Positions 331 to 6,428 of a DNA stretch of 35,532 nucleotides are shown here, in pieces. A program made the translations under genes and the position numbers. Under the pieces are notes generated by a model. That model was not told the origin of the DNA and made no database searches. It saw only the letters and a list, made by a program, of their open reading frames with translations. The stretch's first letter is position 1; each line of letters starts with the position of its first letter. Origin of the DNA: Algoriphagus sp. GTDB lineage: Bacteria > Bacteroidota > Bacteroidia > Cytophagales > Cyclobacteriaceae. The stretch lies in contig JAURGC010000006.1 in NCBI GenBank assembly GCA_030833985.1, forward strand, positions 1-35,532, written 5' to 3'.

Positions 331-1647
331 ATGACACCAAAGCGAACCCACCACTCATTCGAAATGATTCGACCACTCTTCCTTTTTGTTTTTGGTCTGA
401 TACTCTTTAGCTGTAGCAGTCAATCCAGTGAACAATCGTTCGATAGTTCTTCTTTGCGTCGCGCCACTATAGAGGAAGTAGAAACCCTGGTGGAAGCCTT
501 TATCCTTGCAGAAGACTCCAGCACAATTCGTATTCCAGAAGGATTCTACGATCTCAAAACCCAACTTATCCTTGACAATAAAAAAAACATTCGTATTCAA
601 GGAGAGGGCATGCATAAAACAGTACTCTCTTTCCGAAATTTAAAATCAGGGGGTGAAGGGGTGAAAATCGTAGGCAATAACATTACCATTGAGGAATTAA
701 GCATCGAAGATGCTCCAGGCGATGGGATCAAAGCCCAACATACAGTTGGGATTACTTTTAGAAAAATTAATGTCACCTGGACGAATGGTGATAAATCCAA
801 AAATGGAACTTACGCCATTTATCCAGTTCAATGCAAGCATGTGCTAATCGACAGTTGCATTGCCTCCCATTCCAAGGATGCAGGAATTTATGTAGGTCAA
901 TCGGAAGACATTGTGGTCAAAAACTCACTCGCCTTTGGAAATGTTGCAGGAATAGAAATCGAAAACTGTGACAGAGCCGAAGTGTATGGGAATACAGCTC
1001 GCGATAATGCAGGAGGAATTTTGGTATTTAACCTACCTGGTCTGCCTAAAAGTGATGGTCGGCAAACCCGTATTTACAACAACGACATCGTAGACAACAA
1101 CCATGAAAATTTTGCGATTCCTTTGGGGGAAGATCCCAATGGAAATACAGTGACCATGATCCCCCCAGGATCAGGGGTGGTATTGTTGGCGGCCAAAGAA
1201 GTGGAAATTTTCAATAATCGAATCTTACGTAACAAAACCTATGGAGTAGCCATCTCCAGCTACCAGGTAACCGGCTTTCCTGCAGAAGCTCCCAACTGGT
1301 CCCCTTATACCTCCGACGTGTATCTCCATGATAATAGCTACGACCGAGGATCGTTTAGCCTTCCGGATCTTAGCCGTGAATTAGGACAATTGGTGAGCCT
1401 ATACAATGCACATGGATGGCTTAAAACCCAAGACATCATATATGACGGTATCTGGGACGAGTCTATTAGCAGCTCCATTGAAAGTAATCCAATGCGGATT
1501 TGCATCCAAGAAGCTGGAATGGAGTCTTTACGCTTTACTCGTTTTTACCTCATGGAAGGCGAGGACAACATCGCCTCTTTCAGTGATTCCAGCCCTTTCC
1601 AACAGTGTGAAAGCACTCCAAAGAATGCTCTTTCGCTATCCCTTTAA
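331..1647 (+). CDS. Parallel beta-helix repeat lipoprotein (TIGR03805-like)
   Basis: ORF 328..1647; lipobox LILFSC; repeated short NNxI/GIxIxN right-handed beta-helix motifs; directly followed by a diheme cytochrome-like gene, as known for this family. Start could also be 364 (MIRPLFLF...). Confidence 0.75.
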   Translation: MTPKRTHHSFEMIRPLFLFVFGLILFSCSSQSSEQSFDSSSLRRATIEEVETLVEAFILAEDSSTIRIPEGFYDLKTQLILDNKKNIRIQGEGMHKTVLSFRNLKSGGEGVKIVGNNITIEELSIEDAPGDGIKAQHTVGITFRKINVTWTNGDKSKNGTYAIYPVQCKHVLIDSCIASHSKDAGIYVGQSEDIVVKNSLAFGNVAGIEIENCDRAEVYGNTARDNAGGILVFNLPGLPKSDGRQTRIYNNDIVDNNHENFAIPLGEDPNGNTVTMIPPGSGVVLLAAKEVEIFNNRILRNKTYGVAISSYQVTGFPAEAPNWSPYTSDVYLHDNSYDRGSFSLPDLSRELGQLVSLYNAHGWLKTQDIIYDGIWDESISSSIESNPMRICIQEAGMESLRFTRFYLMEGEDNIASFSDSSPFQQCESTPKNALSLSL

Positions 1648-1660
1648 AAATAAATCGAGG

Positions 1661-2776
1661 ATGAACGTGTTGATGAAACGATTTGTAGTTTCCATTTTTA
1701 CTATCTTTTTACTCTTGGTTCTGATGTTTTCCTGTGCGCCAGAAGCGAGTAAACAGGAGCTATCTTCCGAAACTCCAATCGAGATCCTCGCTCCTGAAGA
1801 TGCCAATGGGAAATTTCCCTACAAAAGACTTTCCACCTATGACTTTTTTACGGGAGAAATGGCCAAACTCAGTCCCAATTCAAGCCTTCTTCCCTACCAA
1901 CCTGCCTCTTCTTTATTTACAGATTATGCACTAAAAAGCCGTTTTATATCCCTTCCAAAGGATACACAGGCAAACATAGAAGGCGAGGAACTCAATTTTC
2001 CCATGGGAACCATCCTTGTGAAAAATTTTTACTACCCCACAGACTATAGAAAGCCAGAGGGAGAGCGAAGAATTATTGAAACTCGGCTTATGATTCTTGA
2101 AGAAGGAGGATGGGAAGCCTATCCTTACCTCTGGAATGAGTCTCAGACAGATGCAGTCTTGAAAGTAGTGGGGGCAGAAAAGGAAGTTCGCTTCATCAAT
2201 CAGGCTGGGAAAGAACAGGTTATAAACTACCTAGTACCCAACAAAAATCAATGCAAAAGTTGTCACAATAAAAACGAATCCCTAGCCCCTCTAGGCGTAC
2301 AAATTAGGCATCTCAATCATGACATTGCCTACGAAAGTGGAACTGAAAACCAATTGGCGAATTGGTCAAAATTGGGAATTTTGGTCGGCTTTGAGGGAAA
2401 AGCTGCGCATCCCAGTGTAGTCAACTACGAGGACCAAAGTCAAGCTCTAAACGACCGAGCCATGGCCTACTTGGATATCAACTGTTCCCATTGCCATCGT
2501 GCAGAAGGCCCTGCGAGTACATCCGGACTATTTCTTACTTATGGACAGCAAGACCCTTTAAAACTAGGAGTCTATAAAACCCCAGTTGCGGCAGGCAAGG
2601 GCGCTGGATCATACACCTACGATATTGTTCCTGGTGAGGGTGATGCATCCATACTCCTGCATCGCATGAATTCGACCGAGATAGGAGTGGCCATGCCTGA
2701 GTTAGGGCGAACCAGCATTCATGCAGAGGGAGTGGCTCTCATCCGAGAGTGGATCAATCAGATGGATGAAAAATAA
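1661..2776 (+). CDS. Diheme c-type cytochrome-like lipoprotein (SO2930/HNE_0200 family, TIGR03806-like)
   Basis: ORF in track runs 1406..2776, but MNVLMKRFVVSIFTIFLLLVLMFSCAPE at 1661 is a lipoprotein signal; two CxxCH motifs: CKSCH (2252-2266) and CSHCH (2483-2497). Confidence 0.75.
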   Translation: MNVLMKRFVVSIFTIFLLLVLMFSCAPEASKQELSSETPIEILAPEDANGKFPYKRLSTYDFFTGEMAKLSPNSSLLPYQPASSLFTDYALKSRFISLPKDTQANIEGEELNFPMGTILVKNFYYPTDYRKPEGERRIIETRLMILEEGGWEAYPYLWNESQTDAVLKVVGAEKEVRFINQAGKEQVINYLVPNKNQCKSCHNKNESLAPLGVQIRHLNHDIAYESGTENQLANWSKLGILVGFEGKAAHPSVVNYEDQSQALNDRAMAYLDINCSHCHRAEGPASTSGLFLTYGQQDPLKLGVYKTPVAAGKGAGSYTYDIVPGEGDASILLHRMNSTEIGVAMPELGRTSIHAEGVALIREWINQMDEK

Positions 2777-2949: not shown

Positions 2950-3699
2950 TTAAATATTCTCGCTACTTACTACGGCAGAGAAGTATTCCCGATTCATTCG
3001 GGCAATATTGGTAATGGAAATACCTTTAGGGCATTCTGCCTCACATGCGCCTGTGTTGGTACAAGCACCAAAACCTTCCGCATCCATTTGAGCAACCATT
3101 TTTTCTGCCCTTGCCTTACGCTCTACCTGACCTTGCGGAAGCAGCGCCAATTGGGACACTTTGGCAGAGGTAAAAAGCATAGCAGAAGCATTTTTACAGG
3201 CCGCTACGCAGGCACCACAACCGATGCACTGAGCTGCATCCATGGCTAGATCCGCTATCGTTTTTGGAATTGGAATCTCATTGGCGTCAGGAACACCACC
3301 TGTATTGACAGACACATATCCTCCTGCCTGTATAATTCTGTCAAAGGCAGAACGGTTGACCACCAAGTCTTTGACCACAGGAAATGCCTTTGCTCTCCAT
3401 GGCTCGATGGTGATGGTTTCCCCATCGGAGAACGAACGCATGTGCAATTGGCAGGTAGTGGTCTGCTGTGGACCATGTGGTTTACCATTGATATACAAAG
3501 AGCACATCCCGCAGATTCCCTCGCGGCAATCGTGATCAAAATGGACCGGATCTTCCCCTTTTTCGGTAAGCTGGTCATTCAACACGTCCAACATTTCCAA
3601 AAAGGACATGTCTTTAGACACCTGGTCTGCCGTGTAAGTAGCAAATCCACCCTTATCTGCCGCATTTTTCTGTCTCCAGATCTTTAATGTCAATTTCAT
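2950..3699 (-). CDS. sdhB: Succinate dehydrogenase/fumarate reductase iron-sulfur subunit
   Basis: [21 protein letters not shown] 2Fe-2S motif, [14 protein letters not shown] and CEAECPKGI clusters; adjacent to sdhA and sdhC. Confidence 0.95.
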
Positions 3700-3798
3700 T
3701 TCTCTACGCTAATTTAAGTATCTGTTGAGGGCCTTGGATTTTCTGAAACTATCGGCAAAAAACCCAAAACATCTCAACTTGAAGTGATTTTCAACAAA

Positions 3799-5733
3799 TT
3801 ATTTATAAGAACGCTGCGTTAATTTTACATTTTCAAAGACCAACTCTTCTTTGACCAGCTCTTCGTCTTGCCCTTCACCAAGGTATTTCCATGCAGCTAC
3901 ATAGGCAAAATTCTCATCATCACGTAAGGCTTCCCCATCCGGTGTTTGGTATTCTTCACGGAAGTGGCCTCCACAAGATTCATTTCTGTTCAAAGCATCA
4001 TCTACCATCAATTCACCCAGCTCTAGGAAGTCAGCTACTCGGTTTGCTTTCTCGAGGGTTTGGTTGAGTTCCTCATTGGTACCCATCACTTTTACATTCG
4101 ACCAAAACTCCTTTTTTAAGGCTTGAATCTCTGCCTTGGCTTCCTTCAATCCTATTTCCGTTCGGGCCATACCACACTTATCCCACATGATTTTACCCAA
4201 TCGTTTGTGGAAATAATCCACTGGCTTGGATCCATTAATTTTTAATAGACGCTCAATACCCTGCTTAACTTCTTCCTTTGCTCGAGCAAATTCTGGATGA
4301 TTTTCGTCAACTTTAGTAGGTGCCAACTGTGCCAAGTAGTCACCTACGGTGTACGGTATTACGAAATAACCATCCGCAAGGCCTTGCATCAAGGCAGATG
4401 CCCCCAATCGGTTGGCTCCGTGTTCGGAGAAATTGGCTTCACCCAAGGCATACAAGCCAGGAACGGTAGTCATCAAATTGTAGTCTACCCACAATCCACC
4501 CATGGTGTAATGCACCGCTGGATAGATCATCATAGGATTCTCGTAGGGGTCCTCTCCAGTAATCTGCTTGTACATATCAAAGAGGTTGCCGTATTTCTGC
4601 TCGATAATCTTTCTGGTATCACGCTTGATGGCGTCACGGAAGTCCAAGAATACAGCTTCACCCGTTTCGTTCACTCCACGGCCTTCATCGCATACGTATT
4701 TGGCATTTCGAGAAGCCACGTCACGAGGGACTAGATTGCCGAATGAAGGATACTTACGCTCCAAGAAATAGTCGCGGTCCTCTTCTTTAATATCGTTTGC
4801 TTTGATTTGCCCTTTTCTAAGTTTCTCCGCAATCTCTACGGTAGCAGGCACCCATACGCGTCCGTCGTTTCGAAGTGATTCAGACATCAAAGTCAACTTA
4901 GATTGATGGTCTCCAGATACTGGAATGCAAGTCGGGTGAATTTGAGTAAAGCAAGGGTTGGCGAAAAATGCACCTCGCTTGTGTGCTCTCCAAGCAGCAG
5001 TCACGTTGGACCCCATCGCATTGGTAGACAAGAAAAACACATTACCATATCCGCCAGTACAGAGGAGTACAGCATGTGCTGCATGCGTTTCTACAGCTCC
5101 TGTGATTAAGTTACGCGTTACAATTCCTTTGGCTTGCCCGTCAATAACCACCACGTCCATCATCTCTGTACGTGGAAACAATTTTACTTTGCCATTGGCT
5201 ACCTGACGACTTAAAGCAGAATAGGCCCCTAACAACAATTGCTGCCCTGTTTGACCGCGCGCATAGAAAGTACGGGATACTTGAGCACCTCCGAAAGAAC
5301 GGTTGGCCAAAAGCCCTCCATATTCCCTAGCAAAAGGCACACCTTGAGCTACACATTGATCAATAATTTTGACAGAAACCTCTGCAAGTCGGTATACATT
5401 CCCTTCGCGCGCACGGTAATCTCCCCCTTTGATCGTATCGTAGAAAAGTCTGTAGATTGAATCTCCGTCATTTTGGTAATTTTTTGCCGCATTAATCCCC
5501 CCTTGTGCCGCAATGGAGTGTGCTCTTCTAGGACTATCTTGGAAGCAAAATGCCTTCACATTGTACCCCAATTCTGCAAGGGAAGCTGCAGCAGATGCTC
5601 CTGCAAGGCCTGTGCCTACGACAATCACATCGTATTTACGTTTGTTTGCAGGATTAACCAGCTTGCTTGAAAATTTATGCTTAGTCCATTTTTCTGCTAA
5701 TGGACCAGCAGGTATTTTGGAATCAAGTATCAT
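3799..5733 (-). CDS. sdhA: Succinate dehydrogenase/fumarate reductase flavoprotein subunit
   Basis: [28 protein letters not shown] motif, [64 protein letters not shown]. Confidence 0.96.
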
Positions 5734-5744
5734 AAGGAGACTAT

Positions 5745-6428
5745 TTAGTAGCTAGTGAAATAAATATATAGGGGCATGGATGCGAAAAGTGCTGGCACCA
5801 AAATGCAGTAAATGGCTCCTACTGTTTGGATTGCAGGAGAATATTTTTTGTGGTTGAGGCCCAGGGTTTGGAATGCAGAGGCAAATCCATGAGAAAGGTG
5901 AAACCCTAAAAACACCATGGAAATCACATACAAGGCAACCAACCACAATTGCTTGAATGCTCCATTTACAATTAGAAAGAGGTCTTTGTAATCCTCTCCG
6001 GCATAGGTTACGGTTGGAACCTGTCCCCAATGCATTTGAGCCCAAAAACCTTGGAGGTGAACCACAAGAAAAATAAGTATGATGGTGCCTAAAACGCCCA
6101 TGTTTCTGGAAGACCAAGCACTATTTGTGCTTCCTTTAGACGTAGAGTAATTCACAGGACGAGCAGCTTTGTTTTGCCTAGATAGAAAAATAGAATAAAT
6201 CACGTGTCCTATCACAGAAATGTACGTTAGGTAGGACAAGAGCTTGACTGCAGGATTTGTAGTCATAAACTTGGCATACATGTTAAAGGCTTGGCCTCCA
6301 TCCCCTTTAAATAGAAGTAAATTTCCCGATACATGACCTGTTAAAAACAAAATGAGAAAAAGGCCGGTCAGAGCCATTATCAGTTTCTTTCCTAGGGTGC
6401 TATTCAAGGTTTTGGTAACCCAACTCAT
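5745..6428 (-). CDS. sdhC: Succinate dehydrogenase cytochrome b subunit
   Basis: Multi-TM protein with conserved His residues ([33 protein letters not shown]); first gene of sdhCAB. Confidence 0.92.

Follow-up and report, generated by a model that had tools for sequence, protein, structure and literature searches.

The protein families TIGR03805 (parallel beta-helix proteins, hereafter called A) and TIGR03806 (SO2930/HNE_0200-family diheme cytochromes, hereafter called B) form a pair which has been without a function since the two models were made. The descriptions of the database entries contain no function, no P460-like domain and no partner swaps. No paper on the function of the TIGR03805/TIGR03806 pair was found in the open-access literature, which mentions SO2930 only in passing, in agreement with the preliminary description of the locus, and a recent paper on a TonB copper transporter does not involve the pair. 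Several characterized systems resemble one or other of the two proteins. The cytochrome P460 cofactor, found in hydroxylamine-oxidising enzymes, has a covalent lysine-heme cross-link and a ferrous Soret band at about 460 nm. Members of the di-heme CCP/MauG family (PF03150) combine one reactive heme with one electron-transfer heme. Right-handed beta-helices with a conserved polar sheet face occur in AlgE-type mannuronan C5-epimerases and PL6 lyases, in which the catalytic residues are His (AlgE) and Lys and Arg (PL6).

The DNA analysed here (hereafter the window) is a stretch of 35,532 nucleotides from Algoriphagus sp. (GCA_030833985.1, contig JAURGC010000006.1). Its A and B genes do not differ from the TIGR03805 and TIGR03806 families in gene order, adjacency or occasional fusion of the homologues, and the feature is an ordinary member of this catalogued but uncharacterised pair. 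The features are as follows:

331..1647 (ATG to stop), + strand: gene A, parallel beta-helix (lipo)protein, TIGR03805, 438 amino acids (profile match, model pLDDT 90.4)
331..411 (approximate), + strand: signal sequence of gene A, putative lipobox ...LILFS-C (sequence)
487..1452, + strand: TIGR03805 beta-helix domain of gene A, amino acids 53-374 (profile match)
721..966, + strand: invariant polar face of A, D131, K134, Y161, Y164, D183, Y187, E209, E211 and N212 (conservation and model register)
1648..1660, + strand: intergenic gap between A and B, 13 nt, consistent with co-transcription
1661..2776 (ATG to stop), + strand: gene B, SO2930-family diheme c-type cytochrome (lipo)protein, TIGR03806, 371 amino acids (model pLDDT 89.0)
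1661..1735 (approximate), + strand: signal sequence of gene B, putative lipobox ...VLMFS-C (sequence)
1814..2326, + strand: N-terminal P460/cytochrome c'-beta-like domain of B, amino acids 52-222 (profile comparison with permutation and decoy controls)
2021..2023, + strand: codon for Lys121, the counterpart in the alignment of Lys70/78/106, which cross-link to heme in cytochromes P460 (invariant in 93/93 sequences; PMC11928373)
2252..2266, + strand: heme 1 attachment site of B, CKSCH, amino acids 198-202 (sequence)
2327..2767, + strand: C-terminal class-I-like cytochrome c domain of B, amino acids 223-369 (AlphaFold2 model)
2483..2497, + strand: heme 2 attachment site of B, CSHCH, amino acids 275-279 (sequence)
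2693..2695, + strand: codon for Met345 (in an MPE motif), which is probably the distal heme 2 ligand (conserved in 92/93 sequences)

Both reading frames are intact and on the same strand, and the gene coordinates confirm exactly the distance of 13 nt given in the preliminary description. The family assignment made there was borne out by hmmscan: A scored 337.2 bits against TIGR03805 (amino acids 53-374, curated cut-off 141.5) and B 378.9 bits against TIGR03806 (amino acids 55-368, curated cut-off 313.3). The two CxxCH heme sites are indeed in one protein, B (C198-H202 and C275-H279). Purifying selection is strong, with dN/dS values of 0.09 (A) and 0.12 (B) in comparison with the locus L163. 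The lipobox signals that had been noted in both proteins are plausible, each N-terminus having a hydrophobic stretch which ends in Leu/Met-Phe-Ser-Cys, although Phe at position -2 is unusual and the signals are not constant among orthologues. With a crude pattern, a lipobox was detected in both partners of only approximately 56 % of 73 named orthologous pairs and in neither partner of 11 pairs; the pair is therefore not always lipid-anchored. No clear acidic Bacteroidota surface-export signal follows the lipobox, and many orthologues are not lipoproteins, which leaves the surface-bound substrate proposed earlier without backing.

Co-occurrence was assessed in 297 Bacteroidota and 200 Pseudomonadota genomes (n = 497), presence of B being a score above the curated cut-off. 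A was found in all of the 32 genomes that contained B, and in 37 of the 497 overall. The A gene was directly upstream of B in 28 of the 32 B-positive genomes, and A-B fusions were present in 2 further genomes, the Pseudomonadota G437 and G552, which encode A and B as one protein of approximately 1000 amino acids. Among the Bacteroidota, B was present in 19 genomes and A in 21, with both in 19/19 and the genes contiguous in 15; in G071 they are approximately 10 kb apart on one contig, and in G046, G092 and G187 they are on different contigs. Among the Pseudomonadota, B was present in 13 genomes and A in 16, with both in 13/13, contiguous in every case. High-GC Pseudomonadota loci were checked by tblastn, since gene calling in them is unreliable. 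The pairing of A with B is thus far beyond chance, and the co-occurrence, adjacency and occasional fusion given in the preliminary description, which had itself named rare adjacency as the contrary outcome, all hold in this sample.

Named loci came from Cytophagales, Saprospiraceae, Chitinophagales, Flavobacteriaceae and Kordiimonadaceae, and also from assembled genomes labelled Verrucomicrobia, Neomarinimicrobiota and Rhodothermales. In 76 of 80 named loci A preceded B on the same strand; a gene lies in between in L172 and L203. The two were no more than 400 bp apart in 101 of the 117 loci checked. The genome containing the window is a draft of 2.6 Mb, 82 % complete, and the named genomes most closely related to it are from Algoriphagus. 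Of 36 genomes sampled from the same genus, 33 have B above the cut-off and 1 more has a partial copy; all of those listed with less than 3 Mb retain B.

As judged from profile comparison, the first half of B is remotely homologous to the cytochrome P460/c'-beta fold. A profile of the N-terminal domain, made from 93 sequences including paralogues, was compared with a cytochrome P460 alignment and gave a score of 43.9 (probability 90 %), whereas 200 column permutations gave 11.1 ± 2.0 (maximum 18.4). The reversed alignment scored 13.8, and the decoys, 300 real proteins encoded by neighbour genes, scored no more than 28.6. The alignment is secure over approximately 34 columns only (K92-Y125), within which FPMGTILVK, ending at Lys121, pairs with FPEGSILVK of P460. 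Lys121 aligns with Lys106 of Nitrosomonas sp. AL212 P460 and Lys70 of the N. europaea enzyme, the heme-cross-linking residues of these proteins (PMC11928373). The c'-beta proteins without the cross-link have Met or Phe at this position, and a lysine engineered there is sufficient for cross-linking (PMC11928373). K92, R94, K121, F123, E140, T141 and R142 are invariant in 93/93 B proteins; E140 and R142 may be on the strand that matches the distal-carboxylate strand of P460, in a region where the alignment is insecure.

The strand order of the modelled N-terminal domain, followed by CxxCH, agrees with the P460/c'-beta fold. A Foldseek search of the PDB with the B model placed P460/c'-beta structures (2je2, 7ead, 9hqt and 7zqz) among the top 26 matches, none of them significant, and the whole model had no match at E < 0.001. 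Sequence searches of the PDB with full-length B and with the N-terminal domain alone gave no credible relative. The score of B against the Pfam cytochrome P460 family (PF16694) was 13.6 bits (E = 0.09), below the gathering threshold of 27, and membership in cytochrome P460 proper is therefore not claimed. B shares with the P460/c'-beta superfamily (N. europaea P460, M. capsulatus c'-beta) the strand order, the FPxGTxxxK motif, a lysine at the cross-link site, CxxCH after the sheet and the lack of a conserved sixth ligand, but differs in that a hairpin is inserted ahead of CxxCH and a further domain, of cytochrome c type, is present, which gives B two hemes where the known P460/c'-beta proteins have one per chain.

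Apart from the CxxCH histidine, domain 1 contains no Met or His conserved among the 93 sequences, hence none as sixth ligand of heme 1. The absence of a conserved sixth ligand is a hallmark of ligand-binding or catalytic hemes, and heme 1 is probably five-coordinate, with Met345 probably the ligand of heme 2. A Lys121-heme cross-link may be formed in B. The lack of a conserved Met or His in domain 1 disfavours a role as carrier for both hemes, and the term electron carrier, previously applied to B, is probably too modest for a protein with heme 1 in a P460-like domain; B would more probably be a reactive heme protein.

The AlphaFold2 model of A (pLDDT 90.4) is a right-handed parallel beta-helix. 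The closest solved folds were AlgE4/AlgE6 epimerases, RbmB, PL6 lyases and GH28 enzymes, with E = 4.9e-8 for AlgE4 and TM-scores of 0.43-0.55, a level of general beta-helix similarity. TM-scores of about 0.45-0.55 are usual among beta-helices. Conservation was assessed in 64 A sequences partnered by B and 4 partnered by MauG/CCP proteins. Y161, P165, D183, Y187, E209, E211 and N212 are invariant in both sets, as are N226, N251, N256, N260 and F261. K134, W150, Q190 and, mostly, Y164 depend on the partner, K134 being Met in the MauG/CCP-partnered proteins. In the model register K134, Y164, Y187 and E209 would share one sheet face (strands 131-136, 161-166, 184-189 and 206-211). Neither His nor Arg is invariant at any position in the 64 + 4 sequences, and the MauG/CCP-partnered proteins have lost K134, so the usual AlgE and PL6 catalytic sets are absent as such. 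A shares the beta-helix and the conserved polar face with the AlgE/PL6 enzymes, but has approximately 15 % identity to them, a different conserved set and a cytochrome partner. A protein-derived cofactor on A, made from Tyr164/Lys134 by B or MauG, was considered and rejected because K134 and Y164 are not kept in the MauG/CCP-partnered proteins.

A and B were each repeatedly found with redox or cytochrome proteins in the absence of the other. Where B is missing, A is fused to a di-heme CCP_MauG protein (L099), or carries a C-terminal cytochrome c domain and adjoins a CCP_MauG gene (L096, L287 and L224, from Ruegeria pomeroyi). A is thus found with B, with di-heme MauG/CCP or with monoheme cytochrome c, three families of c-type cytochromes that are unrelated to one another. 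The L224 locus, on the R. pomeroyi DSS-3 megaplasmid (SPO_RS20595-20610), encodes a cytochrome c, a CCP/MauG protein, a TPR protein and a beta-helix-cytochrome c protein, and has the look of a sister system, in a model organism that is easy to grow.

Paralogues of B scoring below the cut-off are fused behind PQQ dehydrogenase domains of the soluble glucose/sorbosone dehydrogenase type (GSDH, PF07995) in L083, L098, L272 and L273, with the B-type domain as a C-terminal two-heme module. The fusions in L272 and L273 also have carbohydrate-binding or sugar-related domains, those in L273 including starch-binding CBM26 modules. These B paralogues retain the same conserved residues as B. In the pair of the window A stands in the place of the GSDH domain, but does not have the PQQ fold. 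GSDH/B-type fusions, some with CBM26, F5/8-type C, ThuA or planctomycete-cytochrome (PSCyt/PSD) domains, reach 2157 amino acids. Flavobacteriaceae (L085-L091, L120 and L121) show a second conserved pairing, that of a B paralogue with an adjoining, large and uncharacterised FG-GAP/UnbV_ASPIC protein secreted by the T9SS.

The gene context of the pair is heterogeneous in a Pfam tally of 64 neighbours, and there is no single conserved substrate gene. A TonB-receptor-type gene was within 250 bp on the same strand of 16 of 118 A/B units, compared with 1 of 242 control genes from the same loci (p = 1e-7); the units are from several lineages, and L210 and L274 are from the same genome. In three loci the TonB receptor is beside A, with B located elsewhere. 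One TonB-receptor-like family of 785-808 amino acids has a CarboxypepD_reg domain and a plug-like segment, mostly without a Pfam TonB barrel match above threshold. It adjoins A or AB in unrelated lineages (L105, L107, L109, L112, L113, L169, L175 and L211). On a Novosphingobium plasmid the order is receptor, A, B, receptor, and alcohol and aldehyde dehydrogenases and a PQQ alcohol dehydrogenase are encoded nearby.

In L114 the pair is inside a glycan-utilisation cluster (GH92, GH78, GH2, GH88 and GH95), and the gene directly behind B encodes a 3-keto-disaccharide hydrolase. A GFO_IDH_MocA oxidoreductase is encoded upstream in L179, and L203 contains a DUF1501/PSCyt cluster. Most AB loci have neither an adjoining sugar gene nor a TonB receptor, and a shared sugar operon was rejected as the general context, being seen in L114 and scattered cases only. 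Downstream of AB in L196 (10154-14576) a multiheme-cytochrome gene and then a gene of 1024 amino acids resemble the start of an alternative complex III, and may be an electron outlet for AB. Most Algoriphagus and their relatives, and some Spirosomataceae, have a Crp/Fnr-type (cNMP-binding) gene immediately upstream of A; positions 1-330 of the window do not contain it, as in the close relatives L136, L138 and L163, and A and B are kept. In the window and its close relatives a minus-strand outer-membrane-protein gene stands directly next to A-B. On the other side of the pair, a terminator-like element with a strong 12-bp stem (2900-2928) separates B from the succinate dehydrogenase genes, which converge on it from the minus strand (2950-6428).

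A redox partnership of A and B is likely. To the reading that the two form an exported two-protein redox unit, with electrons exchanged between a substrate on A and B and between B and the respiratory chain, we attach roughly even confidence. The substrate bound by A, most probably a carbohydrate or a similar polyol, would lie along the face of Tyr161, Asp183, Tyr187, Glu209, Glu211 and Asn212, and electrons would pass between the bound substrate, or a product of the A reaction, and the P460-like heme 1 of B. From there they would go to the Met-ligated heme 2 in the His/Met class-I-like cytochrome c domain, then, by way of a periplasmic cytochrome c, into the respiratory chain, and in many lineages an adjacent TonB-dependent receptor would bring the substrate in. 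A would presumably be in physical contact with B. The nearest working parallel is offered by the PQQ-dehydrogenase/B fusion, which may be seen as an organic-substrate oxidase with B as its cytochrome module. To our knowledge there is no precedent for a beta-helix with intrinsic redox activity, and A may just bind or cleave the substrate. The earlier suggestion of redox chemistry together with a carbohydrate-enzyme-like scaffold is supported, in general terms, by the AlgE4/lyase-like fold of A, the cytochrome swaps, the PQQ fusions and the L114 cluster; as to the glycan or carbohydrate nature of the substrate and the direction of electron flow, these we infer.

The main alternative to the two-protein redox unit, though we regard it as rather unlikely, is that B is a peroxidase or an NO- or hydroxylamine-handling enzyme of MauG/CCP or P460/c'-beta character, with heme 1 reacting with H2O2, NO or NH2OH, heme 2 carrying electrons, and A as the protein or substrate that is oxidised, matured or protected by B. 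Di-heme CCP/MauG proteins are alternative partners of A and, like B, have two hemes, in B too probably one reactive and one for electron transfer; the P460/c'-beta-like domain with the invariant lysine at the cross-link site and the invariant Glu/Arg strand near the distal-carboxylate position points the same way. B had, however, no PF03150 (CCP_MauG) match in the Pfam search and no sequence relationship with that family, the residue-conserving PQQ-dehydrogenase fusions suggest that B takes electrons from an organic-substrate oxidase, and no nitrification, denitrification or peroxide-stress genes were seen beside AB. Both the redox unit and the peroxidase or NO/hydroxylamine enzyme predict contact between A and B and a reactive heme 1, and they differ in the direction of electron flow.

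That A is a polysaccharide hydrolase, lyase or epimerase and B a separate carrier for other enzymes, the two being co-regulated without a joint reaction, appears improbable. The top structural matches of A, from the epimerases to GH28, and the conserved acidic cluster with K134 on one sheet would fit such an enzyme, but the matches are at the level ordinary for beta-helices, invariant His and Arg are lacking, K134 is replaced by Met when the partner is MauG/CCP, and A is fused with three cytochrome families. A unit for copper or another metal, with A as NosD-like metal delivery, B as metal reductase and the TonB receptor found beside some loci as metallophore importer, is very unlikely, for although A is, like NosD, a beta-helix and passes the broad Pfam model PF05048 (44.2 bits, gathering threshold 23.6), it reaches only 30.9 bits against the NCBIfam NosD model TIGR04247 (cut-off 300), no NosF/Y/L-like or copper-chaperone gene was recognised among the neighbours scanned, and not one His, Met or Cys is invariant on its conserved face, a finding that speaks against a copper site and led us to reject A as a copper protein.

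The P460/c'-beta assignment of B, the partner-swap pattern and the TonB-receptor context are new, and all are computational. We propose, tentatively and as less probable than not, that B carries a lysine-cross-linked P460-type heme as half of a diheme module that plugs into various exported oxidoreductases, A and the PQQ dehydrogenases among them. The pair is present in approximately 6 % of the sampled Bacteroidota and Pseudomonadota genomes, usually contiguous, and freshwater relatives of the genome containing the window retain it in spite of their small genomes. The partner swaps provide independent handles on the substrate. If the proposal is true, a P460-type cofactor would be widespread in heterotrophic Bacteroidota and Pseudomonadota and A-B would be a new kind of exported oxidoreductase, and a cofactor hitherto tied to enzymes of the nitrogen cycle would belong to general exported oxidation chemistry.
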